DNA from: Methylophilus sp. 14
Lineage (GTDB): Bacteria > Pseudomonadota > Gammaproteobacteria > Burkholderiales > Methylophilaceae
NCBI RefSeq assembly: GCF_015354345.1
Contig: NZ_JADKYS010000001.1
Coordinates: forward strand, 1-64,000
Length of the DNA stretch: 64,000 nucleotides
Reading direction: 5' to 3'
Each line of letters opens with the position of its first letter. Position 1 is the first letter of the stretch. Below are positions 10,388 to 37,510 of this stretch, in pieces. Both the position numbers and the translations under genes were made by a program. The notes under the pieces are model-generated. The model worked only from the letters and a program-made list of their open reading frames with translations, had not been told where the DNA came from and did not search any database.

Positions 10388-10642
10388 TTACTCAAGCGAC
10401 AGCGGTTGGGCGGGTGCGTTGTTTTGCTGTTGCAAGAGGGTGTCTATGTCGGCATCGGTGATACCTGCATCGCGGGCGAGTTGCATCATGGCATCGCCCA
10501 TCAGTAGCCGCGAGGGTGGCTTAACCGCTTGTGCGATGATCTCTCGTACCTCTGCCTCTGCACTTCGACCATGTTTCGCCGCTTGGAGCTTGAGCGCCCG
10601 GTGAATGTCGTCTGGTAAATTACGGACGGTTAGCATTGCCAT
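10388..10642 (-). CDS. FitA-like ribbon-helix-helix antitoxin
   Basis: 84 residues. The N-terminal ribbon-helix-helix (LTVRNLPDDIHRALKLQAAK then HGRSAEAEVREII) is typical of FitA, which binds DNA. The C-terminal ~35 residues would wrap and neutralise the PIN toxin. I chose ATG 10642 over 10648 because GAGGAG lies nine rather than three bases away. Antitoxin-first order with toxin three bases downstream is standard. The palindrome at 10664-10694 is the likely autoregulatory site. Confidence 0.88.
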   Translation of the reverse strand: MAMLTVRNLPDDIHRALKLQAAKHGRSAEAEVREIIAQAVKPPSRLLMGDAMMQLARDAGITDADIDTLLQQQNNAPAQPLSLE

Positions 10643-10663
10643 GATCATACTCCTCGAGCAGTT

Positions 10664-10694
10664 AATGCATGCATATTATGATTGTGCATGCATT
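10664..10694. promoter_or_regulatory. Probable FitA operator
   Basis: AATGCATGCA (10664-10673) and TGCATGCATT (10685-10694) are perfect inverted arms separated by 11 bases, 22 bases upstream of the antitoxin start. FitA-type proteins bind paired inverted half-sites as a tetramer with their toxin, and the spacing suits this. Confidence 0.65.
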
Positions 10695-10726
10695 TTGGCA
10701 AGGATATTGTGAGTGCTAACCAGGCC

Positions 10727-11590
10727 CTAGAGCAATTCTTCCACGTGTTTTTTAATATTCGCGGCCATTTTTGGCGTCGGCAGGTCGTTGGTGTCTGTGC
10801 CAAACGGGTCTTCAATTTCTTCGGCGATGAGTTCCAGGCTGGCGAGTACATAGAAAATAAACACGACGACCGGAATCACGTAATAGCCGAGGCTGAACAC
10901 AAAGCCAAACGGTAAAGTCATCACATAAAAGAAGATGAATTTTTTGATAAACGCGCTGTATGAATAGGGGATGGGCGTATTTTTAATGCGTTCGCAGACA
11001 CCGCATACGTCGGTAAACGATTTGAGTTCTTCGTGAATAATAAACAACTGGTCGCCAGTGATTTTGCCGCTGGTGTAAAGCTCGTTGGCTTTTTGGAAGA
11101 TGCGTTGCGCGATCTGGTTGGGGTGGTGTTCGTGGTGGTCGATTTCTAGATCGAGGCCATCAAACAGCATTTTGCTGACGTCTTCATTCATTAAATGTTT
11201 CGACAGCACGGCGGCGTAGGTCGGGATGATTTTTTTAAAGAAATCGCGGTCGCTTTCGTCGGTCAAATAAGCCGATAGCTTAATCGACAGGTTACGGCTG
11301 TTATTGACCAAGGCACCCCAGGCTTTGCGGCCTTCCCACCAGCGGTCGTAGGCGGTGTTGGTGCGGTAGGCGAGCAATAACGAGAGCACAAAGCCAACGG
11401 TGGTGTGGATCAATGAGAGGTTTTTCACATGGCTGCTGTCGGCCAGCTTCCAATACTCGATTTCAAGGTAGGCAATGCCACCTGCGTAAGCGCCGATGAG
11501 TGCCATCATGGGCATGAGTTGGCGGAAGGTATCTGACTCGTGAAAGCGGAAGATAAAGGTGAGCCAGTCTTTGGGATTGTATTGAATCAT
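10727..11590 (-). CDS. Bestrophin-family (YneE/UPF0187) ion channel
   Basis: About 287 residues from ATG 11590 (a GTG at 11629 is possible but its extra residues do not fit the family). It shows the family's N-terminal KDWLTFIFRFHESDT, a first membrane pair (35-80) with RTNTAYDRWWEGRKAWGALV, and the later hydrophobic hairpin around YSYSAFIKKFIFFYVMTLPF with the C-terminal EEIEDPFGTDTNDLP. Bacterial homologues form pentameric cation or anion channels in the inner membrane. It is upstream of and co-directional with the toxin-antitoxin pair but separate from it. Confidence 0.85.
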   Translation of the reverse strand: MIQYNPKDWLTFIFRFHESDTFRQLMPMMALIGAYAGGIAYLEIEYWKLADSSHVKNLSLIHTTVGFVLSLLLAYRTNTAYDRWWEGRKAWGALVNNSRNLSIKLSAYLTDESDRDFFKKIIPTYAAVLSKHLMNEDVSKMLFDGLDLEIDHHEHHPNQIAQRIFQKANELYTSGKITGDQLFIIHEELKSFTDVCGVCERIKNTPIPYSYSAFIKKFIFFYVMTLPFGFVFSLGYYVIPVVVFIFYVLASLELIAEEIEDPFGTDTNDLPTPKMAANIKKHVEELL

Positions 11591-26365: not shown

Positions 26366-26587
26366 ATGAAACGTCTGTTTTATATCGATTATCCACAAGA
26401 GCATTTTGAAGGCCAGGCGCATCGTTATCGTTGTGCGTTTTGCAAACAGGAAACCACGCAGATCAACGGCCGTCTCGAAGGGCATTTGCCCAGTTGTGAA
26501 TACCGCGTGACGCTGGAAAAGGCAGGCTTTGAATGTAACCGCAACTCGCCCACGCCACATGAAGATATGGCGGATGAAGTGGACTAA
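26366..26587 (+). CDS. Small CxxC zinc-ribbon-like protein, unknown function
   Basis: 73 residues from ATG 26366 (AGGAGG five bases upstream; ATG 26363 is only two away). Cysteines at CAFCKQ and later LPSCEY and FECNRN, with a histidine in EGHLPSC, suggest a small zinc finger. The whole protein is hydrophilic and soluble. Function unknown. It precedes the YeeE pair by 51 bases on the same strand and might be co-transcribed with it. Confidence 0.6.
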   Translation: MKRLFYIDYPQEHFEGQAHRYRCAFCKQETTQINGRLEGHLPSCEYRVTLEKAGFECNRNSPTPHEDMADEVD

Positions 26588-26638
26588 ACGCTGCACGCCA
26601 TCGCCAGCGCATTTTTTCTTGGATAACAAGCTAACTTT

Positions 26639-27064
26639 ATGACGACCTTTACACCTTTGCCATCGCTGATTGGCGGTCTGCTAATCGGCTTTTCGACCCT
26701 GTTGATGATACTTTGGCTGGGCAAGATTGCTGGCATCAGTGGCATTGTCGGCCAGCTTTGGTCCGCCGCCGCGGGTGACCGTGTCTGGCGCCTTGCTTTT
26801 GTCAGCGGCCTGATGCTCGCCCCGCTATTGTATGCATGCTGGGCGCCTTTACCTGCTGTGCAAATAGTTACCAGCACGCCGGGCTTGGTGGTGGCCGGTC
26901 TGCTGGTCGGGTTTGGCACGCGCTTGGGCAGCGGTTGCACCAGTGGCCACGGCGTTTGTGGTTTGTCGCGCTTGTCCTTGCGCTCGCTGGTTGCCACGCT
27001 CACGTTTATGGCGACGGCGATACTGGTGGTCTGGCTGTTGCGTCACGGCCTGGTGGCCGCATAA
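26639..27064 (+). CDS. YeeE/YedE-family half transporter (PmpA-like)
   Basis: 141 residues with four membrane segments. The family's signature, FGTRLGSGCTSGHGVCGLSRL, has the conserved cysteine needed for sulfur passage in YeeE. Full-length YeeE carries thiosulfate; half-size pairs occur in sulfide-detoxification operons (PmpA/PmpB). It probably joins with the next gene to make one pore for sulfane sulfur. It lies 10 bases before it and converges on the FisR-like regulator. Ribosome site is unclear. Confidence 0.85.
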   Translation: MTTFTPLPSLIGGLLIGFSTLLMILWLGKIAGISGIVGQLWSAAAGDRVWRLAFVSGLMLAPLLYACWAPLPAVQIVTSTPGLVVAGLLVGFGTRLGSGCTSGHGVCGLSRLSLRSLVATLTFMATAILVVWLLRHGLVAA

Positions 27065-27074
27065 GGGGGGAGAC

Positions 27075-27494
27075 ATGTCGAGCGTGATTGCATTATTGGC
27101 GGGCGTGATCTTTGGCCTGGGCCTGGTTGTCGGTGGCATGACCAACCCCGCCAAAGTATTGGCCTTTTTAGACATTACGGGTGACTGGGACCCTTCGCTG
27201 GCATTTGTCATGATGGGGGCGATTGCCGTCAGTTTTTTTGCCTTTAGGTTTGCACGCAGGCAAGCTGTCAGTCAGTTAGGGCTGCCCATGCAACTGCCTG
27301 CCACCACCTTGATTGATCGCAAACTGGTGCTTGGGGCCATGTTGTTTGGCGCCGGTTGGGGCATCGCGGGCTTTTGTCCTGGCCCGGCGGTGGCGTCAAT
27401 CCTTATTGGTGGGCGTGAGGTGTGGATATTTGTGGCCAGCATGCTGGCAGGCATGGGGTTGTATACCTGGGCAGCCAGGCGCGGCTGGTTGTAA
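27075..27494 (+). CDS. YeeE/YedE-family half transporter (PmpB-like)
   Basis: 139 residues from ATG 27075 (GGGGGGAG upstream). Four membrane segments; the second-half signature FGAGWGIAGFCPGPAVASIL carries the conserved cysteine. It pairs with the preceding half transporter to form a complete inverted-repeat channel of the YeeE fold. It ends four bases before the convergent regulator. Sulfur compound import, or export of excess sulfane sulfur, is inferred from context. Confidence 0.88.
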   Translation: MSSVIALLAGVIFGLGLVVGGMTNPAKVLAFLDITGDWDPSLAFVMMGAIAVSFFAFRFARRQAVSQLGLPMQLPATTLIDRKLVLGAMLFGAGWGIAGFCPGPAVASILIGGREVWIFVASMLAGMGLYTWAARRGWL

Positions 27495-27498
27495 GTCT

Positions 27499-28857
27499 TT
27501 ATGTCTGATCCTGCCAGAGCTTGCGGTGGCGCCACAAGGTGGTTCGCCCCACGCCTAATTGTTTGGCGGCTTGGGTCAGGTTGCCGTGGTTAGCTGCCAG
27601 TGCCTGTAAGATATCTGCTTCTGAAAGCGTTTTTCGGCCCGTGCTGACAGTCGCCGTATTCGGAGTTGACTGCTGTGTGGGTTGTAACTCCGGCGGTAAA
27701 TCAGTCACCTCTATTTGTTTGCCATCACACATCACCAGGGCGTAGTGCATTACATTGCGTAATTCGCGCACATTACCTGGCCAGTCATAGGTCATTAATT
27801 GCTGCATGGCGGCTGTGCTCATCACCGGCAAGCGATCATCACTGAATTGTTGTTTTAACAGGTGGCGGATAATCAAGGGAATATCCTGCTTGCGCGCATT
27901 TAACGGCGGAATGAACAACGGGATCACGCGCAGGCGGTACAGCAAGTCCTGCCGGAACCGCCCGGCCTTGACCTCTTCGCGGAGTGCTTTGTGCGTGGCC
28001 GCCAGGATACGGACATTCGCCAATAAGGGTTTTTCCGCGCCCACAGGCAGGTATTCTCCGCTCTCTAACACGCGTAACAAGCGTGCTTGCAATGCAATTG
28101 GCAGCTCTGCGATTTCATCCAGCAGCAAGCTGCCGCCTTCGGCACGGCCAAACAGGCCTTGATGATCGCGCACCGCGCCAGTAAACGCGCCTTTGACATG
28201 GCCAAACAGTTCACTTTCCAGAATGCCCGCGTTCAGCGTGGCGCAGTTAATCGCCACAAATGGTGCTTTGTGGCGCGCACTTTCGCCATGAATGGCGCGC
28301 GCCACCAACTCTTTACCAGTGCCCGAATCACCACGGATCAGTACTGGCATATCGGTGTTGGCCACGCGGCGTATCATCTCGAACACTTTGTACATCTCTG
28401 GCGCATGGCTGATGAGGCCATATTTTTCTGCCATGTCGCTAACTGCCGGTAGCGCGTTGGATGTGCGCTGTGGTAGCAGGATTTCCAGGCCGCCGTCAAA
28501 GCTGCCGTCGGCAGCCTGAAAAGCCATGGCGTATTTGATCACGCCTTGTAACTGGCCATCGTCTCGCTGCAACTGCAGTGGAAACGCTGTGACTTTTCCT
28601 GACTCGGTGAGCCCGCAACCACGCATGCATTGTATGCAACGGTTGGCGGTGAGGCAGCTTTCCCCCTGCAAGGCTTGTGCTGCGTAGCCTAGTAGCTTTT
28701 CAGCGCCCGGGCTCCAAAAACTGATTTTCTTGTCGCGGTCCACCGTGAACACAGCGGCATCCGGCATGATCAATGCAATCATGCGTGCCAGTGATTCGCC
28801 TTGTGACTGGCTGAGTTGCGGCGGGTGCGCAAAAAAATCGATATTGGGTTGTTCCAT
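27499..28857 (-). CDS. fisR: FisR-like sigma-54 activator sensing sulfane sulfur
   Basis: 452 residues from ATG 28857; earlier in-frame ATGs (28899, 28926) would place the start within the palindromes upstream. Domains: PAS-like sensor (about 25-130) with four cysteines at about 68, 74, 77 and 81 ([14 protein letters not shown]), central AAA+ domain with Walker [16 protein letters not shown] and GAFTGA, and Fis-type helix-turn-helix ([18 protein letters not shown]). FisR of Cupriavidus uses cysteines to sense polysulfide and activates pdo and sqr via sigma-54. It is divergent from exactly such genes, so the role is well supported by context. Confidence 0.85.
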
Positions 28858-28890
28858 TTTATATTTTGAAACGTTCCGTGCTGAGGATTT

Positions 28891-28927
28891 GTGTTTCATT
28901 GAAACACTAACTGCATTGAATTTCAAT
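28891..28927. promoter_or_regulatory. Candidate upstream activator sites for FisR
   Basis: GTGTTTC-ATT-GAAACAC (28891-28907) and ATTGAA-T-TTCAAT (28915-28927) are two perfect inverted repeats, centred 22 bases apart, about two helical turns. They lie about 60-95 bases before the -12 element, the right place for enhancer sites of a sigma-54 activator. They share the core TTTC/GAAA. They also precede fisR, allowing autoregulation. Confidence 0.6.
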
Positions 28928-28983
28928 CGATATTTTAGATTAAGTGCATGATTAATTTAAATAATCACACCCTATGGAACATG

Positions 28984-28998
28984 TGGCACCGATTTTGC
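28984..28998 (+). promoter_or_regulatory. Sigma-54 (-24/-12) promoter of the sulfide cluster
   Basis: TGGCAC-CGATT-TTGC matches the TGGCAC-N5-TTGC consensus exactly, with the right GG-to-GC spacing. It is 33 bases before the persulfide dioxygenase start, giving a leader of about 20 bases. It is the only perfect match I found upstream of any gene in the window. Confidence 0.9.
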
Positions 28999-29031
28999 CT
29001 AGATCATTGTCATTCCCCAAGGAGAGTTCTC

Positions 29032-29736
29032 ATGATATTCCAGCAATTTTTCGATCCGGACAGCAGTACTTTTACCTACTTGCTCGGCTGTGAAGTCACC
29101 AGGCAGGCGGTGTTGATTGATACGGTGGAGCACGATATCGACAGGTATCTTGCGGCGCTTGCGCAGCAGGACTTGCATTTGGTGTACACCTTGGAAACAC
29201 ATGTCCATGCCGACCATGTCACTGCAGCTGACGCCCTACGCAGGCGTGTGGGCAGTAAAAGTGTGGTGCATCGTGATGCTGGTGCAATGTGTGGTGATTT
29301 ATTAGTGACGGATGGCATTCATGTGCAGGTGGGTAGCCTGGATATTGAGGTGAGATATACACCCGGGCATACCAACGGCTGCGTCAGCTATCTGGTGGGT
29401 GACCGCATCTTTACCGGAGATGCCTTGCTGATTGGTGGCTGTGGTCGTACAGATTTTCAGCAGGGCAATGCTGGCCAACTCTATGACAGCATACACAAGC
29501 AGATTTTCAGTTTGCCAGATGAGACCTTGATTTATCCTGGTCATGATTACAACGGCAACATCGTTTCTACGGTTGGGCAGGAAAAGCGCGAAAACAAGCG
29601 CCTGGGTGGCGAGAAATCGCGTCAGGAGTTTGTAGAAATCATGGCGAATTTAAAGCTGGCTTATCCGAAGCATATTGATGTTGCGCTGCCTGCCAATCAG
29701 GCTTGCGGCAATATCGCGGTCAAGCAATCCGCTTAA
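29032..29736 (+). CDS. Persulfide dioxygenase (ETHE1 type)
   Basis: 234 residues from ATG 29032 (AAGGAGAG upstream). Metallo-β-lactamase fold with the ETHE1 metal site: ETHVHADHVTAA (HxHxDH), YTPGHTNGCVSYL, FTGDALLIGGCGRTDF and YPGHDYNG. It oxidises glutathione persulfide to sulfite in the cytoplasm, consuming O2. First gene after the -24/-12 promoter. The next gene starts 20 bases on. Compared with Blh proteins of other bacteria, it lacks the N-terminal DUF442 domain, which here is fused to the following SQR. Confidence 0.92.
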   Translation: MIFQQFFDPDSSTFTYLLGCEVTRQAVLIDTVEHDIDRYLAALAQQDLHLVYTLETHVHADHVTAADALRRRVGSKSVVHRDAGAMCGDLLVTDGIHVQVGSLDIEVRYTPGHTNGCVSYLVGDRIFTGDALLIGGCGRTDFQQGNAGQLYDSIHKQIFSLPDETLIYPGHDYNGNIVSTVGQEKRENKRLGGEKSRQEFVEIMANLKLAYPKHIDVALPANQACGNIAVKQSA

Positions 29737-29756
29737 CCAGCCATAGGAGAAAAATA

Positions 29757-31439
29757 ATGAAATTGGGGAAGATTAATCAGGAGATCACAGTCGCTGACCA
29801 ATTGCTGGCCACGGATTTAGAGGCGGTTGCTGCGCAAGGCTTTAGATCGGTATTTTGTCATCGACCAGATGGCGAGGGTGCTGACCAGCCTAACTTTCAG
29901 GAGATCGAAACCGTTGCCAAGGTGCTGGGATTGCATGCCGTGTATTTACCCGTGACCAGCGGCAAAATCACCGATGCCGAAGTCCAATCGTTTGCTGAGG
30001 CTTTTGCCGCCGCACCTAAACCGGTGATGGCCTATTGTCGATCCGGCATGCGAGCTATTACCTTATGGAGCTTGCAAGCGGCGGGTAAAGTACCCTTATC
30101 CGAACTGTTGTTATTTGGTAAGCAAGCCGGCTATGATCTTTCGGGTTTGAGTCTGCGTCTGGTGTCAGGTGGTCAAAGTAAATCTGTGACTCAGCAGTCT
30201 CACCAGATCGTGATTGTGGGCGCTGGAGCGGCAGGCATTGCTGTGGCCTCAAGTTTGCTGGCACGTTCACCGGATTTGGATATTGCGATTATCGACCCTG
30301 CAGAAACCCATTATTATCAGCCTGGCTGGACACTGGTGGGTGGTGGCGTGTTTGATGCTGCCTACACCGTAAAAACCATGGCCTCGGTGATTCCAAACGG
30401 GGTGAAATGGATTAAAGCGGCAGTGGCCGGTTTTGAACCGCAGTCCGACCGTGTGATTCTGGAAGGTTGCCAAACTGTACATTACGAAAAATTAATCGTC
30501 TGTCCTGGTATCAAGCTTCACTGGGGTGGCGTTGAGGGACTCATTGAAACACTGGGCAGAAACGGCGTGACGTCCAATTATCGCTATGATCTGGCGCCTT
30601 ACACCTGGGAGCTGGTCAGTCAGTTCAAGGGGGGTAAAGCGGTCTTTACGCAACCGCCCATGCCAATTAAATGTGCAGGTGCACCTCAAAAAGCCATGTA
30701 CCTGTCGGCTGACCACTGGTGGCGTAGTGGCTTGTTAAGCAAGGTCGAGATTGATTTTTATAATGCAGGTGCAGTGCTGTTCGGCATTAAGGAATACGTA
30801 CCCGCCCTCATGGCTTATATCAAAAAGTATGGTACGCAACTCCATTTTAATCACCGACTGACCAAAGTGGATGGTGATCATAAAAAAGTGTGGTTTGCCC
30901 GTACGCTGGAAGATGGTAGCCAGGAAACCATAGAAACTGATTTTGACATGTTACATGTCGTGCCGCCGCAACAGGCTCCTGACTTTATTCGTGCCAGTGC
31001 TTTGGTGGATGGGGCAGGCTGGATAGATGTGACTCCGGACACGCTTCAACACAAAGTCTATCCCAATATCTACGCGCTGGGGGATGCCGCCAATAGCCCC
31101 AATGCCAAAACAGCTGCTGCTGCGCGTAAACAGGCGCCTGTGGTCGCCACCAATGTGTTGTTTGATCTCAAGCTGGACAATCGCCGCGCTGCTTATGATG
31201 GTTATGGATCCTGTCCATTAACTGTCGAACGTGGCAAAGTAGTGCTGGCCGAGTTTGGTTATGGGGGCCGTTTGTTACCCAGTTTTCCCAACTGGCTGAT
31301 TAATGGCCAGCAGCCTTCTCGTCTGGCCTGGATGCTGAAAGAGCGCCTGTTACCGCCGGTTTACTGGAAAGGTATGCTTAAAGGGCATGAGTGGCTGGCG
31401 CAGCCACAAGTATTGCAACAATCGCAGGAGCATGTATGA
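29757..31439 (+). CDS. DUF442 (TIGR01244)-sulfide:quinone oxidoreductase fusion
   Basis: 560 residues from ATG 29757 (TAGGAG upstream). The N-terminal ~140 residues form a dual-specificity phosphatase-like TIGR01244 domain with catalytic-loop cysteine in MAYCRSGMRAITLW. The rest (about 150-560) is a flavoprotein of the type II SQR group: VIVGAGAAGIAVASSL, HYYQPGWTLVGGG, IVCPG and PIKCAGAPQKAMYL, with two likely redox cysteines. SQR oxidises H2S to sulfane sulfur and reduces membrane quinone. The DUF442 part is a candidate sulfur transferase to glutathione. Its stop overlaps the SulP start. Confidence 0.92.
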   Translation: MKLGKINQEITVADQLLATDLEAVAAQGFRSVFCHRPDGEGADQPNFQEIETVAKVLGLHAVYLPVTSGKITDAEVQSFAEAFAAAPKPVMAYCRSGMRAITLWSLQAAGKVPLSELLLFGKQAGYDLSGLSLRLVSGGQSKSVTQQSHQIVIVGAGAAGIAVASSLLARSPDLDIAIIDPAETHYYQPGWTLVGGGVFDAAYTVKTMASVIPNGVKWIKAAVAGFEPQSDRVILEGCQTVHYEKLIVCPGIKLHWGGVEGLIETLGRNGVTSNYRYDLAPYTWELVSQFKGGKAVFTQPPMPIKCAGAPQKAMYLSADHWWRSGLLSKVEIDFYNAGAVLFGIKEYVPALMAYIKKYGTQLHFNHRLTKVDGDHKKVWFARTLEDGSQETIETDFDMLHVVPPQQAPDFIRASALVDGAGWIDVTPDTLQHKVYPNIYALGDAANSPNAKTAAAARKQAPVVATNVLFDLKLDNRRAAYDGYGSCPLTVERGKVVLAEFGYGGRLLPSFPNWLINGQQPSRLAWMLKERLLPPVYWKGMLKGHEWLAQPQVLQQSQEHV

Positions 31440-33166
31440 CCGCGATTCTGGACAAGACGGCGTGGCTACGTCGTTTGCCGGTACTGGACTGGGGGCGTCG
31501 ATATCAGCGCCAGCATGCGATTCATGACCTGACAGCAGCCGTGATAGTGACGCTGATGCTGGTGCCGCAAGCACTGGCTTACGCCATCCTGTCTGGCCTG
31601 CCGCCGCAGGTCGGGCTTTATGCGAGCATGTTGCCACTGGTTTGCTATGCATTGCTCGGCACCAGCTCGACGCTGGCTGTTGGGCCGGTAGCTGTGGCTG
31701 CACTCATGACGGCGAGTGCCATTGCGCCATATTCCGCACAAAACTTGCAGATGGGGTTGCAGGCGGCCATTGTGTTGGCCTGTTTATCGGGACTGTTTCT
31801 GCTTTTTGCTGGCGTATTCAGGCTGGGGTTTCTGGCTAATTTTTTGTCACACCCGGTGATTGCCGGATTTATCGGGGCCGCCAGTCTGGTCATTGCCAGC
31901 AGTCAGCTACCGACCTTGCTTGGGATTCAGGCCAGTGGTGACAATATGCTAACCCTGTGGCACGGCATATTGTTACAGATTGACGAGGTACATGGGGTCA
32001 CAGCCCTTTTATCGCTATTGACATTGCTGTTGCTGCTACTGTTCAGGCGCTACGGTGTCCGCGCCTTGCAAACAGCGGGATTGAGCTTGTTTTGGGCACA
32101 AACGCTTAGCCGCTCGGTTCCGGCTTTACTCGTGATTTCTGGTACCTGGGCCATCCGTCAGAACTTTACGATACTTGCCGGGGTGCGTACGGTTGGGCAG
32201 ATTCCAGCCGGCTTGCCGGCGCTCACCTGGCCACACTGGGACGCCCCACTTTGGCAGGCTTTATTGATGCCAGCCATACTGATTTCGATTGTCGGCTACG
32301 TTGAGTCTATTTCAGTGGCCCAGAACCTGGCAATGAAGCGACGTGAGCGTATCGACCCTGATCAGGAATTGCTGGCACTGGGTGCCGCTAATCTGGCGGC
32401 GAGCTTCAGTGCGGGACAGCCGGTGACTGGCGGTGTGTCACGATCGGTAGTGAATATGGATGCAGGAGCGCAAACCCCCGCAGCTGGCTTTTTCACTGCA
32501 GTGGGGATGCTACTGGCCACCCTGTTTCTGGCAGGGTGGCTGAGTGATCTGCCGCGATTCATTCTGGCAGCTACCATCATTGTGGCGGTATTAAGCCTCC
32601 TTGAGTGGCAAGTGTTTATTGATACGTGGCGACGTAATCGTAGTGACTTTCTGGCACTGTTGATGACATTTATGATTACCTTGCTGGTGAATGTGGAGAG
32701 CGGAATCAGCGCGGGGGTGCTACTGTCGGTAGCCATGCATCTTTATCGTAGCAGCCGTCCACATATTGCTATCGTTGGCCAGGTGCCTGGCACCGAACAT
32801 TTCAGAAACGTTGCACGGCATGCAGTCAAGGTGTGCCCCGATGTGGTGACCATGCGCGTAGATCAGAGTTTATATTTTGCCAATGCGAGGTATCTGGAGC
32901 AGAAGGTGCTGGAAGTGCTAGCTGACAATCCGGCAGTCAAGCATGTGATCCTCATGTGTTCAGCGGTGAATGAGGTGGATAGTAGTGCGCTTGAAGTGCT
33001 TGAAACCATTAATCAGCACTTATCTGCTCTTAAAATTGGCTTTCATTTGTCCGAGGTCAAAGGGCCGGTGATGGATACGTTACAAGATTCTTCTCTGAAG
33101 CAACAGCTTAATGGCAAGATCTATCTCACACAATATCAAGCCTATGCAGCGCTGGCATGTCATTAA
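31436..33166 (+). CDS. SulP-family anion transporter with STAS domain
   Basis: 576 residues from ATG 31436, which overlaps the stop of the SQR fusion (ATGA). AGGAG lies five bases upstream. Membrane part (about 25-440) with LMLVPQALAYAILSGLPPQ, GTSSTLAVGPVAVAALM and the QPVTGGVSRSVVNMDAGAQT signature; STAS domain about 455-560 (DVVTMRVDQSLYFANARYL). SulP proteins move sulfate, bicarbonate or other anions. In this setting export of sulfite/sulfate/thiosulfate or import of sulfate fits. Third gene of the cluster. Confidence 0.9.
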   Translation: MTAILDKTAWLRRLPVLDWGRRYQRQHAIHDLTAAVIVTLMLVPQALAYAILSGLPPQVGLYASMLPLVCYALLGTSSTLAVGPVAVAALMTASAIAPYSAQNLQMGLQAAIVLACLSGLFLLFAGVFRLGFLANFLSHPVIAGFIGAASLVIASSQLPTLLGIQASGDNMLTLWHGILLQIDEVHGVTALLSLLTLLLLLLFRRYGVRALQTAGLSLFWAQTLSRSVPALLVISGTWAIRQNFTILAGVRTVGQIPAGLPALTWPHWDAPLWQALLMPAILISIVGYVESISVAQNLAMKRRERIDPDQELLALGAANLAASFSAGQPVTGGVSRSVVNMDAGAQTPAAGFFTAVGMLLATLFLAGWLSDLPRFILAATIIVAVLSLLEWQVFIDTWRRNRSDFLALLMTFMITLLVNVESGISAGVLLSVAMHLYRSSRPHIAIVGQVPGTEHFRNVARHAVKVCPDVVTMRVDQSLYFANARYLEQKVLEVLADNPAVKHVILMCSAVNEVDSSALEVLETINQHLSALKIGFHLSEVKGPVMDTLQDSSLKQQLNGKIYLTQYQAYAALACH

Positions 33167-33201
33167 TAGATGTATTCTGGGTAACAGTAAGGAGACAAGC
33201 G

Positions 33202-33372
33202 ATGGCAAATAACATCAGTCAATTTGAGCGATATTTAAGAGTGATTGTGGGGGCGGGTTTACTGCTATGGACACTGTTTTTCCAGGGAGCGGCCTGGGGC
33301 TGGTTAGGCGTTATACCTTTAGCAACCGGGCTGATTGGCTGGTGTCCGGTGTACTTACTGTTTCGCAAGTAA
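33202..33372 (+). CDS. DUF2892 small membrane protein
   Basis: 56 residues from ATG 33202 (AAGGAGACA upstream). The whole protein is the DUF2892 domain: FERYLRVIVGAGLLLWTLF, then PLATGLIGWCPVYLLF, two transmembrane helices with a conserved GWCP cysteine. The domain also ends YgaP rhodaneses. It is recurrent in sulfide and persulfide operons. Thirty-five bases separate it from both neighbours. Confidence 0.88.
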   Translation: MANNISQFERYLRVIVGAGLLLWTLFFQGAAWGWLGVIPLATGLIGWCPVYLLFRK

Positions 33373-33407
33373 CACATCTGTCAATCTTTCCTGAATCTGG
33401 ACTGGTC

Positions 33408-33617
33408 ATGCACATTAAAAAACTGGTGACGCATTATCGCAACAGCGCCCTTTTTAGACATTTGACATGGGTATTGCTGATTAAAGTGATTCTGTTATGG
33501 ATGTTGTGGGTATGTATCGTCAAGCCGCAGAAGCAACATCCTGATACTGAAAGCGTGTTTAGGCACTTAGTCAGCGTATCGGCGCAATCCTCTGCAGAGA
33601 CTGGAGGTTCAAAATGA
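33408..33617 (+). CDS. cydP: CydP-like small subunit of cytochrome bd oxidase
   Basis: 69 residues from ATG 33408. One transmembrane helix (LTWVLLIKVILLWMLWVCIV) is flanked by a short basic N-terminus and a hydrophilic tail starting KPQKQHPDTESVFRHL. It fits the putative small subunit CydP, which precedes cydA in many proteobacteria. Its stop overlaps the cydA ATG (ATGA), so the two are coupled. An accessory role in oxidase assembly or stability is inferred. Confidence 0.72.
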   Translation: MHIKKLVTHYRNSALFRHLTWVLLIKVILLWMLWVCIVKPQKQHPDTESVFRHLVSVSAQSSAETGGSK

Positions 33618-35167
33618 TTTCTCACGAACTGGTAGATTTGTCGCGACTGCAATTTGCAGCCACCGCCATGTACCACTTTTTGTTTGTGCCGCTGACACTG
33701 GGCATGGTCTGGCTACTCGTCATCATGGAAAGTGTCTACGTCATGACCGGCAAGTTGATCTGGAAAGACATGACACGCTTTTGGGGCAAGCTGTTTGGTA
33801 TCAACTTTGCCCTGGGCGTCACCACCGGCATCACTATGGAGTTTCAGTTTGGCACCAACTGGGCTTATTACTCACATTATGTGGGCGATATTTTCGGCGC
33901 ACCGCTGGCCATTGAAGGCCTGATGGCATTTTTTCTGGAATCCACCTTTATCGGCCTGTTTTTCTTCGGTTGGGACAAGCTGTCCAAACCCAAGCACCTG
34001 ATGGTGACGCTGCTCATGGCCATAGGCACCAACCTGTCGGCGTTGTGGATACTGATTGCGAATGGCTGGATGCAAAACCCGGTTGGTGCCGAGTTTAACT
34101 GGCACACCATGCGCATGGAAATGACCAATTTCTGGGATATCCTGATGAATCCGGATGCGCAGGTGAAGTTTGTGCATACGGTGTCTGCCGGTTATGTTAC
34201 CGGCGCCATGTTTGTGCTCTCCATCTCCAGCTGGTACCTGCTTAAAAAGAGAAATGTAGAGTTTGCCAAACGCAGTTTTAGTGTAGCTGCCGCGTTTGGT
34301 CTCGCCGCTTCAGCCAGTGTGATTGTTCTCGGGGACGAGTCCGGTTATACCGTAGGCGAAGCGCAGCAAACCAAAATGGCGGCGATAGAAGCCATGTGGG
34401 AAACCAAGCCTGCCCCGGCCGGACTGACTTTGCTGGCGGGCATCAACGAGGCCGAGCACAAAAACAACTGGGAAATCGAGATGCCTTATGTGATGGGCAT
34501 TATCGGTACGCGCTCGCTGAGTAAAACCATTCCAGGTATAGACGAGATCAAGGCCAAAAACCGTGAACGTATTCTGAATGGTATCCCCGCCGTGGTGGCG
34601 CTGGAGCAATTGCGGGCCGATCGCAATAACAGCGAAGCCGAGGCTACGCTCAAGGCCCATATCCATGACTTGGGGTTTGGCCTGTTGCTCAAGCGCTATA
34701 CCGATAAGGTCGCTGAGGCCACGCCAGCCATGATTGCACAGGCGGTGGATGACACCGTGCCGCGCGTAGCCCCCATGTTCTGGTCGTTCCGCATCATGGT
34801 GGGCCTGGGCTTTGCCATGCTGGCGCTGTTTGCGCTGGCCATGTGGAGCAGTCTCAAAGGCTGTTTTACTGAAAAACTATGGTTGCTGAAGTGGGCGGTG
34901 TTGATGCTGCCCATGCCATGGATTGCTGCCGAACTGGGCTGGTTTGTGGCGGAATATGGCCGCCAGCCTTGGACCATTTACGGTGTGCTCCCTACGCATT
35001 TATCGGTGTCCACCCTGAGTCCGGCCAGTTTGTATGGCTCATTGATTGGTTTTGTCGGCTTTTACACGGTGTTGCTAGTGGTCGAGTTATATCTGATGGT
35101 CAAGTTTGCCCGGCAAGGGCCAGGCTCGCTGGGCACAGGCCGTTATGATCAGGAAGTACACGCTTAG
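33614..35167 (+). CDS. cydA: Cytochrome bd ubiquinol oxidase subunit I
   Basis: 517 residues. The N-terminal haem b595 ligand histidine is H21 (TAMYHFLFVPLTLGM); GLMAFFLESTFIGLFFFGWD holds the proton-path glutamates; the Q-loop is the long form (PYVMGIIGTRSLSK; GFGLLLKRYTDKV) as in E. coli CydA; and EYGRQPWTIYGVLP is the GRQPW motif. It oxidises quinol and reduces O2 without pumping protons, and bd oxidases resist sulfide inhibition. Follows CydP with a four-base overlap; CydB begins nine bases after. Confidence 0.96.
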   Translation: MISHELVDLSRLQFAATAMYHFLFVPLTLGMVWLLVIMESVYVMTGKLIWKDMTRFWGKLFGINFALGVTTGITMEFQFGTNWAYYSHYVGDIFGAPLAIEGLMAFFLESTFIGLFFFGWDKLSKPKHLMVTLLMAIGTNLSALWILIANGWMQNPVGAEFNWHTMRMEMTNFWDILMNPDAQVKFVHTVSAGYVTGAMFVLSISSWYLLKKRNVEFAKRSFSVAAAFGLAASASVIVLGDESGYTVGEAQQTKMAAIEAMWETKPAPAGLTLLAGINEAEHKNNWEIEMPYVMGIIGTRSLSKTIPGIDEIKAKNRERILNGIPAVVALEQLRADRNNSEAEATLKAHIHDLGFGLLLKRYTDKVAEATPAMIAQAVDDTVPRVAPMFWSFRIMVGLGFAMLALFALAMWSSLKGCFTEKLWLLKWAVLMLPMPWIAAELGWFVAEYGRQPWTIYGVLPTHLSVSTLSPASLYGSLIGFVGFYTVLLVVELYLMVKFARQGPGSLGTGRYDQEVHA

Positions 35168-35176
35168 GAGAATGCC

Positions 35177-36319
35177 ATGTTGGATTACACAACCCTGAAA
35201 ATCATCTGGTGGCTGCTGGTCGGTGTGTTACTCGTCGGGTTTGCCATCATGGACGGCCACGACATGGGCGTGGGCACACTGCTGCCTTTTGTCGGTAAAA
35301 ACGATGACGAACGACGCGTCGTCATCAATACGGTCGGTCCGCACTGGGATGGTAACCAGGTCTGGTTTATCACCGGTGGCGGGGCCATTTTTGCCGCCTG
35401 GCCGCTGGTCTATGCCACTGCCTTTAGCGGCTTTTACTGGGCCATGCTGGCGGTGTTATGGGCTTTGTTTTTCCGTCCGGTGGGCTTTGATTACCGCAGC
35501 AAAATTCATAATGCGCGCTGGCGCAGCACCTGGGATTGGGGCCTGTTTGTCGGTGGTGCCGTACCACCGCTGATTTTCGGCGTGGCCTTCGGCAATCTGC
35601 TACAAGGGGTGCCGTTCAGCCTAGACAACAATCTGGTTTCGTACTATAGCGGCAGCTTCTGGGCCTTGTTGAATCCGTTTGCGCTGCTATGCGGGGTGGT
35701 TTCGAGCGCCATGATCACCATGCAGGGCGGCGTCTATCTGGCGCATCGTACTGAAGGCCGCATCCAGTTGCGTAGCATGATGCTTGCCGGATACGCTGCC
35801 TGGGTCATGGTGGCGGCTTTTGTGCTGGCCGGGTTATGGTTGCGGTTTGGTCATATCGACGGCTATGTCATCACCTCCAGTGTGGATGCGGCAGCTTTAC
35901 CTGATCCATTGGCCAAAACTGTGGCGCGCTCAGCGGAAGGCTGGTGGCAGAATTATCGGGCGCAGCCCATGTTATGGTTGTTGCCTGGTCTGGCGATCTG
36001 TGGCGCTTTACTGGCCACCTGGCTGGTGCAGTCTGGCCGGACTTTACGCGCATTTATAACCTCATCGCTGAGTATACTCGGTGTCATTGGGACGGCAGGT
36101 GCTGCGATGTTCCCGTTTGTGATGCCTTCTTCCATCCAGCCAAATGCCAGCCTGACCGTGTGGGACAGTGTCTCCAGCCATCTGACGCTGCAACTGATGT
36201 TTTTTGCCACGCTGATTTTTATGCCGCTGATTATCTTTTATACCAGCTGGGCCTACCACGTCATGCGTGGCAAAGTCACCGTGGCCGATATCCAGGCCAA
36301 CAGTCATCAGGCTTACTAA
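35177..36319 (+). CDS. cydB: Cytochrome bd ubiquinol oxidase subunit II
   Basis: 380 residues, ATG with TAGGAGA upstream. About eight or nine transmembrane helices. The family pattern FAIMDGHDMGVGTLLPFVGK, VWFITGGGAIFAAWPLVYA, FFRPVGFDYRSKI and FAMLCG-like (FALLCGVVSSAMITMQGG) is present. It supports CydA and completes the bd oxidase. CydX follows 12 bases later. The length is close to the usual ~380. Confidence 0.96.
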   Translation: MLDYTTLKIIWWLLVGVLLVGFAIMDGHDMGVGTLLPFVGKNDDERRVVINTVGPHWDGNQVWFITGGGAIFAAWPLVYATAFSGFYWAMLAVLWALFFRPVGFDYRSKIHNARWRSTWDWGLFVGGAVPPLIFGVAFGNLLQGVPFSLDNNLVSYYSGSFWALLNPFALLCGVVSSAMITMQGGVYLAHRTEGRIQLRSMMLAGYAAWVMVAAFVLAGLWLRFGHIDGYVITSSVDAAALPDPLAKTVARSAEGWWQNYRAQPMLWLLPGLAICGALLATWLVQSGRTLRAFITSSLSILGVIGTAGAAMFPFVMPSSIQPNASLTVWDSVSSHLTLQLMFFATLIFMPLIIFYTSWAYHVMRGKVTVADIQANSHQAY

Positions 36320-36331
36320 AGGAGAATACAT

Positions 36332-36445
36332 ATGTGGTACTTTACCTGGTTGTTAGGCGTGGGTTTTGCCGTACTACTGGCCATCCTCAATGCTATGTGG
36401 CTGGAGTCGGGTGGCTGTGATCATTGCCGTCACGATGCTGAATAA
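36332..36445 (+). CDS. cydX: CydX small subunit of cytochrome bd oxidase, with CxxC tail
   Basis: 37 residues, ATG 36332 preceded by AAAGGAGA. The N-terminal MWYFTWLLGVGFAVLLAILN matches CydX (MWYFAWILG in E. coli), followed by the conserved glutamate in WLESGG. The tail GGCDHCRHDAE adds two cysteines and two histidines not usual in this subunit. CydX stabilises the haem site of bd oxidases. The stop is TAA at 36443-36445. A stem-loop follows. Confidence 0.9.
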   Translation: MWYFTWLLGVGFAVLLAILNAMWLESGGCDHCRHDAE

Positions 36446-36458
36446 TACTGCCCGCCTG

Positions 36459-36489
36459 AGCAAACGCCATGTTTAGCGTGGTGTTTGCT
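36459..36489. terminator. Long stem-loop after cydX
   Basis: AGCAAACGCCA (36459-36469) pairs with TGGTGTTTGCT (36479-36489), 11 pairs with one G-T wobble and a 9-base loop. It lies 14 bases after the cydX stop and before the convergent gene. No T-run follows, so it could be a terminator for either strand or a protecting 3' hairpin. Confidence 0.6.
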
Positions 36490-36502
36490 GTGTATGCAAG
36501 GA

Positions 36503-37510
36503 CTAAAACGATAAACAGATTTTGCCGACATGGCTGTTGCTTTCCTGGTATTGAAACGCCTGCACGATCTCTTCTACCGCAAATACTTTATCCACCACCG
36601 GTTGCATGCCGTTAGCATCTATCGCTTTGATCATGGCTTGTTGTTGCGCACGGTTGCCTACCAGCACGCCTTGCAGTCGTAATTGCTTGATTAAGGCTGT
36701 CACTAGCGGAAAGTCGCCCGCCAAGCCAGTCAAGATACCAATCACCGAGATATGGCCGCCGACACGCGCTGCCAGCATGGACTGCTCCAGCGTGGCGGGG
36801 CCACCAACCTCTACAATATGGTCGACGCCGCGACCGCCAGATATTTCACGCGCTAGCGTGCCCCATTTCGGCGTGCTTTTGTAATTGATGAGGTGGTCTG
36901 CGCCCAATGTGCTAAGTTTCTCCAGTTTGGCGTCGCTGGATGAGGTAGCAATCACCGTCGCGCCTGCCAGTTTGGCAAATTGCAGCGCAAACATAGACAC
37001 GCCGCCCGTGCCTTGCACCAGCACGGTATCGCCTGGTTTGAGGTGGTCATCTGCCATCAGGGATCGCCAGGCGGTAAGGGCGGCGGTGGTGAGAGTGGAG
37101 GAGGCAAGATGGCTCCAGCCTTTGGGCGCCAGGGTGAATGACTCCACACTGGCGGTGACCAGCTCGCGCGCATAGCCATCAACGCCATCGCCAGGCACGG
37201 TGGCAAAGCCTTCAACGTGCGGTTCGCCCGACTGCCAGGTGGGAAAGAAGGTGCTGACAACGGCATCGCCCACTTTGAATTCGGTGACGTCCGCACCTAC
37301 GGCAATCACTTCCCCGGCACCATCTGCCATCGGGATGCGTGGCTCACTCGGCCCCCACATGCCGCTGACCACGGCAAAGTCGTGGTAGTTGAGCGAGTTG
37401 GCATGCAGCCTGACGGTGATTTCACCAATCTTGGGCGCAGCAGCTTCACGGCTGCCTATGGTCACGTTTTGATACCCGCCGCCGGGTTGCACAATGATGG
37501 CTTTACTCAT
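36503..37510 (-). CDS. Zinc-independent MDR family alcohol dehydrogenase / quinone oxidoreductase
   Basis: 335 residues from ATG 37510 (GAGGAGACC upstream; an earlier in-frame ATG at 37546 is not needed). GroES-like domain with NSLNYHDFAVVSG and PMADGAGEVIAVG, then a Rossmann NAD(P) domain (PGDTVLVQGTGGVSMFALQF). The structural-zinc cysteine cluster is missing, as in the zinc-independent members. Substrate unknown; an NAD(P)-dependent alcohol or quinone reductase. It is divergent from the iorA gene across a palindrome. Confidence 0.85.
   Translation of the reverse strand: MSKAIIVQPGGGYQNVTIGSREAAAPKIGEITVRLHANSLNYHDFAVVSGMWGPSEPRIPMADGAGEVIAVGADVTEFKVGDAVVSTFFPTWQSGEPHVEGFATVPGDGVDGYARELVTASVESFTLAPKGWSHLASSTLTTAALTAWRSLMADDHLKPGDTVLVQGTGGVSMFALQFAKLAGATVIATSSSDAKLEKLSTLGADHLINYKSTPKWGTLAREISGGRGVDHIVEVGGPATLEQSMLAARVGGHISVIGILTGLAGDFPLVTALIKQLRLQGVLVGNRAQQQAMIKAIDANGMQPVVDKVFAVEEIVQAFQYQESNSHVGKICLSF

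Follow-up and report, generated by a model that had tools for sequence, protein, structure and literature searches.

A probable FisR-controlled sulfide-oxidation operon with its own cytochrome bd-I oxidase in Methylophilus: a new form of the FisR-PDO-SQR operon

The closest described counterpart of the locus reported here, which joins sulfur genes to cytochrome bd oxidase genes in a 64,000-nucleotide stretch of Methylophilus sp. 14 (contig NZ_JADKYS010000001.1, positions 1 to 64,000, analysed whole and called the window below), is the FisR operon of Acinetobacter baumannii (A1S_1707 / 1708-1711, PDO1-SQR-TauE-hsd), where a divergent sigma-54 activator of the same kind is found (PMC7315123; this and the other papers cited are drawn on for parts of their text). 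In that operon (L206), as in the window, a persulfide dioxygenase (PDO) gene is followed by a DUF442-SQR gene (SQR, sulfide:quinone oxidoreductase) and then by an anion transporter gene, the palindrome core and the -24/-12 box also being shared, whereas A. baumannii has a TSUP transporter where the window has SulP. The bd-I genes of E. coli, cydABX, encode the same CydA, CydB and CydX families as the window, but they have no adjoining sulfur genes and are not known to be sigma-54-controlled. In Cupriavidus, FisR likewise adjoins PDO and DUF442-SQR (work cited in PMC9774590 and PMC12170894), and three conserved FisR cysteines form disulfide and tetrasulfide links (review PMC9774590). The BigR/SqrR-controlled yeeE-yedE-pdo operons resemble the window in their YeeE pair, PDO and TauE or SulP, which lie near an ArsR-type regulator (PMC7315123), and similar gene sets were also found on plasmids. 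The mto-clusters of Methylophaga bring PDO (pdo), SQR (sqrB) and SulP together in a methylotroph, as in the window, but contain a methanethiol oxidase (PMC6548844). By term search, "cyd" and "cytochrome bd" are absent from the main text of PMC6548844, as are "sulfide" and "FisR" from that of PMC5322542, which treats bd gene clusters across proteobacteria. In the open full-text literature, as far as its texts were covered and with subscription papers such as Li et al. 2017 outside the scope, neither a joint FisR-cydA locus nor an oxidase-bearing sulfide operon was found.

We consider it likely that the window carries one sulfur-switched, FisR-controlled sulfide-oxidation operon with its own bd-I oxidase, which would be a new form of the known FisR-PDO-SQR operon and would point to a broader connection of bd oxidases with sulfur sensing. 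This reading is built on the identity, order and spacing of the genes, on a promoter and palindrome conserved in three species, on a cyd set of foreign origin and on the recurrence of the pairing elsewhere. The order runs from a YeeE pair through the sigma-54 activator and the -24/-12 box to PDO, DUF442-SQR, SulP, DUF2892, CydP, CydA, CydB and CydX (Table 1); domain families and coordinates agree with the identities and order proposed in the first-pass annotation, and its one-strand run with gaps of 35 bases or less also stands, the successive gaps from PDO to CydX being 20, -4, 35, 35, -4, 9 and 12 bases. A scan of 26500-37000 gave 20 terminator-like sites against 13.5 expected (standard deviation 4.7), those inside the PDO-CydX run being all intragenic and none lying in any of its gaps, and 8 sigma-70-like sites against 8.2 expected. 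This layout agrees with a single sulfur-switched unit: a PDO with its metal motif, a DUF442-SQR, a divergent sigma-54 activator and a -24/-12 box upstream of pdo are the parts of a putative FisR-controlled PDO-SQR operon, and the CydA, CydB and CydX families together with a long-Q-loop CydA mark the oxidase as a predicted bd-I enzyme. All Pfam families named in Table 1 score above their cut-offs (for several proteins the translation used began at the frame's first start), as do both the Sulfate_transp core and the STAS domain of SulP against curated cut-offs, and CydP passes its NCBIfam cut-off narrowly. The PDO aligns to the PDB sequence 4ysb, residues 149-546 of the DUF442-SQR align to the mitochondrial SQR structures 6mo6/6oi5, and the window CydA, aligned to that of E. 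coli, retains the residues that we take to be the haem ligands and the quinol site. The window CydX ends in GGCDHCRHDAE; a CxxC occurs in none of the 98 other CydX copies examined.

The reactions of the individual enzymes are established for their families, and the operon would then work as follows. The FisR-type activator, bound at the palindrome, would respond to sulfide, or to sulfane sulfur made from sulfide, and open the -24/-12 promoter; SQR would convert sulfide to persulfide and pass the electrons to ubiquinone, PDO would oxidize the persulfide to sulfite, and SulP, whose substrate is predicted, would take sulfite or sulfate out of the cytosol. CydPABX would carry electrons from ubiquinol to oxygen while the haem-copper oxidases are blocked, thus regenerating ubiquinone, so that an oxidase placed behind the same promoter would guard the very step that sulfide would otherwise stop. 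From the DNA we infer sulfur sensing by the regulator, a single transcript to the end of the run and sulfide tolerance of this oxidase; in E. coli, a bd oxidase, an enzyme of a type not blocked by sulfide, keeps the cell respiring in sulfide (work cited in PMC7315123).

The -24/-12 box proposed before PDO is present (TGGCACCGATTTTGCC), and it gains weight because the boxes of the two other Methylophilus copies (L063 and L065) sit almost identically relative to the same palindrome core, at 90 and 91 bases from it compared with 92 here. The palindrome, GTGTTTCATTGAAACAC, has eight-base arms around one base, and its 15-base core recurs without mismatch in both copies; it was spotted by eye and then tested, and a general inverted-repeat search did not list it. 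The first-pass annotation had noted neither this palindrome nor the foreign origin of cyd, the second bd oxidase of the genome or the recurrence of the pairing in other bacteria. A 14-mer, GTTTCATTGAAACA, is common to the upstream regions of pdo in the window and in A. baumannii, a length of 14 bases being reached in 4 of 2000 base shuffles. We regard as unlikely the alternative that cydPABX has its own oxygen- or redox-responsive promoter and merely adjoins the sulfur genes on a shared island. Within the family, cydPABX without adjoining sulfur genes is the commoner arrangement, and a promoter could lie inside the sulP or DUF2892 gene, a sigma-70-like match being listed at 32251-32280; however, such promoter-like matches are no more than expected by chance, the cyd promoters of related Burkholderiales look like sigma-54 rather than FNR promoters (see below), and L065 keeps the CydP/CydA overlap and the spacing around DUF2892 (36 bases on each side), although the SulP-DUF2892 gap is ~160 bases in L063.

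Table 1. Features of the sulfur and cytochrome bd locus in the window
Feature	Position	Strand	Evidence
YeeE1, YeeE/YedE half 1, probable thiosulfate/sulfur importer half	26639..27064	+	Pfam PF04143 Sulf_transp 32.6 bits, cut-off 27; conserved in both other Methylophilus islands
YeeE2, YeeE/YedE half 2	27075..27494	+	Pfam PF20398 DUF6691 181 bits
FisR-like sigma-54 activator	27499..28857	-	Pfam Sigma54_activat; PAS, AAA+, Fis-type helix-turn-helix; four N-terminal-domain Cys
Palindrome, likely activator site	28891..28907		Same core in both other Methylophilus copies (L063, L065); 14 bases in common with the A. baumannii pdo upstream region
Predicted -24/-12 sigma-54 promoter	28984..28999	+	One mismatch; near-same position in L063 and L065
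PDO (ETHE1-like persulfide dioxygenase)	29032..29736	+	Pfam Lactamase_B; HxHxDH present; PDB matches 4ysb, ETHE1 4chl
DUF442 sulfurtransferase-SQR fusion	29757..31439	+	Pfam BLH_phosphatase and Pyr_redox_2; TIGR01244 above cut-off
SulP-STAS anion transporter, probable sulfite/sulfate exit	31436..33166	+	TIGR00815 415.7 bits, cut-off 380.45
DUF2892 / YgaP-like transmembrane protein	33202..33372	+	Pfam PF11127 (YgaP-like_TM) 64.7 bits, longer reading frame scanned
CydP small membrane protein	33408..33617	+	NCBIfam NF045611 30.8 bits, cut-off 29.6, longer reading frame scanned
CydA, bd-I type, long Q loop	33614..35167	+	Pfam Cyt_bd_oxida_I; residues 5-514 align to E. coli CydA 6rko
CydB	35177..36319	+	Pfam Cyt_bd_oxida_II; TIGR00203 502.4 bits, cut-off 117.3
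CydX, unusual CDHC tail	36332..36445	+	Pfam YbgT_YccB; TIGR02106 45.5 bits, cut-off 31.6

The name "fisR-like", given to the regulator in the first-pass annotation, holds in the broad sense of a sigma-54 activator nearest to A. baumannii FisR, but not in the sense of the Cupriavidus type, which belongs to another clade and has other cysteines. The window regulator has the N-terminal cysteine pattern C-x5-C-x2-C-x3-C, and the Cupriavidus-type triad C-x10-C-x6-C is absent from it; the Cupriavidus FisR of L088, presumably the published locus, has cysteines at 53, 64 and 71 of its own sequence (counted by eye), and the Cupriavidus FisR with pdo and sqr of Li et al. 2017 reportedly has the triad C53, C64, C71. 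In the regulator tree, for which the tool gave a long-branch warning and which did not include A. baumannii FisR, the triad-Cys regulators group together (99/99) and the window regulator lies in a separate group (100/100). The A. baumannii FisR, which stands beside PDO, SQR and a TSUP transporter, is 54.8% identical to the window regulator over 341 residues and scores 358 bits against it, compared with 210 bits against Cupriavidus FisR, so that by its sequence the window regulator is placed with the Acinetobacter-type FisR and not with the Cupriavidus type. In A. baumannii, deletion of fisR abolishes the sulfide induction of the PDO-SQR-TauE operon (PMC7315123). FisR-type control of the window operon is likely, given the shared 14-mer and a nearest studied relative of its regulator that is required for sulfide induction, although that relative lacks the Cupriavidus cysteines. 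It appears improbable to us that the signal for the regulators next to cyd is not sulfide but oxygen, nitric oxide or some other thiol stress, which the bd oxidase would serve while PDO-SQR only repairs persulfides; the absence of the published triad from the window regulator speaks for this view, and bd oxidases also resist nitric oxide, peroxide and carbon monoxide. Against it, the nearest studied regulator is the one needed for sulfide induction, and the ArsR-type regulator that replaces FisR in L081, a family locus described below, has two cysteines, C36 and C102 (positions counted by eye), whose spacing of 66 residues equals that of C34/C100 in A. baumannii BigR (PMC7315123).

The simplest reading of the bd-I oxidase of Methylophilus is that it was acquired from outside. 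This CydA was found in 3 of the 22 Methylophilus genomes, each copy inside the block; a named carrier of the block is M. aquaticus VKM B-3159 (L083), whose map is the same as that of G036. In a 45-protein CydA tree the Methylophilus copies fall inside a Burkholderiales-rich group (100/99 with L084), apart from the 13 native Methylophilaceae CydA proteins (100/100). Between the flanking genes lie 11.9 kb in the window and 10.7 kb in G093; in relatives without this cyd the distance is 3.7 to 3.9 kb (G019, G110 and G081) or, in five others, 1.9 to 8.8 kb. The enzyme is an addition, because the genome also has a second bd oxidase, here called CIO-type (CydA in a 481-residue frame, whose identity to the window CydA is 28% over its length), and three COX1-family proteins; two further SQR genes are located at other sites of the genome. 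A second sulfur locus of the same genome (L196 / L077, G000 contig C8, ~499000-510130) has PDO and SulP divergent from SQR, with a relative of the triad-Cys FisR ~5.7 kb further on.

Of 120 genomes sampled from the Methylophilaceae, 22 encode a CydA with 52% or more identity to that of the window, and PDO and/or SQR lies within 10 kb of it in six of them (G000, G036, G093, G088, G058 and G111), the SQR of G004 being 15 kb away. Genus g20 offers, in L064, the order ArsR-PDO-SQR-TauE-methyltransferase-CydP-CydABX. The tie is looser in L066, whose ArsR-PDO-SQR-TauE genes have cydA (truncated at the contig end), cydB and cydX ~3 kb upstream of them, beyond a YeeE pair. In genus g22 (L081) PDO is divergent from BigR-like-DUF442-TauE-CydP-CydABX. 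Another family contributes G553 (L199), the only further one, among 274 genomes sampled from the class, where the window regulator has a relative at E 1e-90 or better; in G553, FisR is divergent from PDO, a TauE-like gene, CydP, CydA, CydB and CydX, with TGGCACGGGTTTTGAT between. When 369 genomes were searched by profile, the sole addition was G470, with PDO and SulP near the regulator and no cyd in the 19 kb examined. On plasmids of A. junii (pA) and A. haemolyticus JS-1us (L207 and L210), a FisR-like gene is divergent from PDO-SQR-TauE-CydA-CydB, with gaps of 12, 103, 13 and -4 bases in pA; this CydA is 65% identical to that of the second oxidase of the window genome and 32% to the window CydA, and represents the other bd class. 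A record of Acinetobacter sp. A22 has an identical PDO (a match of the PDO only). In Cupriavidus (L088, L097 and L108), SQR and PDO lie on one side of fisR and cydPABX on the other, with a sigma-54 box on each side and a FisR of the triad-Cys clade, unlike the single operon proposed for the window; the L088 box on the cyd side is 218 bases from cydA. L101 (PDO, DUF2892) and L089 (PDO) are arranged similarly, and in L145 fisR shares the strand of DUF2892-PDO, a box precedes these two genes, and cyd is divergent. PDO with its metal motif directly follows cydX in 5 of 16 loci of the order sample treated below (L179, L180, L183, L184 and L185).

The joint arrangement does not look random in relatives, a possibility raised with the original annotation: CydPABX or CydAB recurs with PDO and/or SQR in several architectures, and the link between sulfide oxidation and the bd oxidase looks selected rather than accidental, because similar pairings occur in unrelated bacteria. 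That mobile sulfur and oxidase genes simply landed together by island shuffling, without shared function, we hold to be very improbable; the foreign CydA, the flanking sites of different length between species, the plasmid location of the Acinetobacter copies, and another A. haemolyticus plasmid, where the regulator adjoins an insertion sequence element at the expected place of the operon and PDO has no match, are what such shuffling would leave, but several architectures, two bd classes and different regulators unite the same two functions, mostly on one strand and closely spaced. The pattern suggests that the electron exit, and not just the detoxifying enzymes, belongs to the module that moves between bacteria. 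In L213 (Novosphingobium pentaromativorans pLA4), PDO and an FAD oxidoreductase lie ~2 kb from an annotated cbb3-type oxidase subunit I and coxB, so that PDO is sometimes near a haem-copper oxidase instead; in five chosen PDO plasmids of 34, whose gene table is incomplete, no annotated bd oxidase lies within about 8 kb of PDO. Some records of the plasmid collection, NZ_CP104448.1, NZ_CP077849.1, NZ_CP064203.1 and similar ones of 3.6 to 5.4 Mb, look like chromosomes.

Several observations weigh against a sulfur-switched operon with its own oxidase. By itself, the -24/-12 box is at chance level, with 71 matches in the window at up to two mismatches against 71.55 expected. This cyd is absent from 19 of the 22 Methylophilus genomes, and the recurrence is not universal: most family members with such a CydA are without the pairing, 16 of the 22 having neither PDO nor SQR within 10 kb of CydA in the available stretch, four of them (G008, G023, G039 and G064) on short contigs or at a contig end. 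In a 300-genome sample of the order Burkholderiales, compared by hand, SQR stands beside CydA in no genome except that of the window. SQR in cis is dispensable, because G093 (L065, 9258-9273) retains cyd in the operon while sqr alone has dropped out cleanly from the island, with SulP directly after PDO. A separate cyd start is possible in L199, because the TauE-CydP gap is 131 bases and TauE itself contains another -24/-12-like match (10.5 of 12). As to the sensor, the L199 regulator is also without a cysteine cluster, and the A. junii and G470 regulators are without a sensor domain as annotated or as read. The A. baumannii FisR lacks the known sensor cysteines, and its operon contains no oxidase, the sulfide-induced cydAB being elsewhere in the genome (PMC7315123).

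On a broader scale, we lean slightly towards sulfur-switched respiration as a general design, in which triad-Cys FisR would drive cydPABX from a sigma-54 promoter in Burkholderiales, and the oxidase would have been separately fused into the sulfide-oxidation operon, with two bd classes, in Methylophilus, other Methylophilaceae, a distant family of the same class and Acinetobacter plasmids, yielding partly mobile cassettes for sulfide-oxidising enzymes together with a sulfide-proof terminal oxidase. In A. baumannii, E. coli and M. tuberculosis, cydAB RNA increases in response to sulfide (PMC7315123), and no explanation of the route by which the signal reaches cyd was found in the literature covered; candidate promoters, regulators and operons for it are now at hand in methylotrophs and Cupriavidus. 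Among the best 80 of 404 confirmed CydA relatives in named genomes, a close-kin sample, a triad-Cys FisR lies within 2.5 kb of cydA in 55, divergently in 50 of these, and a PDO-like gene with HxHxDH was found in 17, L083 included, within the stretch available. In the 300-genome order sample, at the limits used, this CydA occurs in 87 genomes, a Cupriavidus-type FisR in 60 and both in 30, with CydA and FisR within 1 kb in 16 of the 30; SQR, matched in 22 of the 300, was tried as an order-wide linkage marker and dropped, as it gained nothing new. The Burkholderiales loci are related, so that these counts are not independent events, and the maps of G+C-rich loci rest on tblastn.

The sigma-54 promoters before cyd were scored over the 500 bases before cydA with TGGCACG-N4-TTGCW and a threshold of 10 of 12. 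A first score had given a weak signal, and the signal became clear with a weighted score that includes the G after TGGCAC; since the weighted score was picked after that first result, the counts are exploratory. Of the 72 FisR-linked loci (55 named, 16 of the order sample and L169), 64 reach the threshold on the cyd strand, compared with 14 on the other strand and 10.45 in order-1 Markov copies; it was also reached by 11 of 23 named loci without a detected neighbouring regulator and by none of the 15 native Methylophilaceae loci. When the region is narrowed, 79 of 95 loci score at least 9.5. Many boxes of Burkholderiales end in TTGAT, and their reading as FNR sites was rejected because a full FNR-like site overlaps only 1 of the 79 boxes. 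The canonical -12 element of a sigma-54 promoter is GC, and the sigma-54 claim is weaker for many Burkholderiales boxes because they have GA there: many Comamonadaceae boxes read TTGA and not TTGC, while the full TTGCA is present at several loci outside that family. The box precedes a small frame that ends at cydA, found in 95 of 95 loci, of which 90 show a loose CydP-like motif (a stricter filter kept 5); the NCBIfam CydP cut-off was passed by all ten frames scanned, seven of them from Burkholderiales, and tblastn with the window CydP matched in only 2 of the 80 named loci. In another genus of the Methylophilaceae (L167, ~10473-11001), cydPABX is immediately preceded by a gene for an ArsR-type regulator, with no PDO or SQR in the stretch.

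Many Comamonadaceae loci have a PDO-like gene after cydX, and these were not counted as PDO because most copies fail the HxHxDH metal motif. The motif of the PDO-like metallo-beta-lactamase reads HHHDH in L096, L100, L103, L110, L119 and L134, and in 27 more named loci the PDO-like protein otherwise fails HxHxDH, mostly within about 4 kb downstream of cydX; such proteins may be degenerate or repurposed persulfide dioxygenases.

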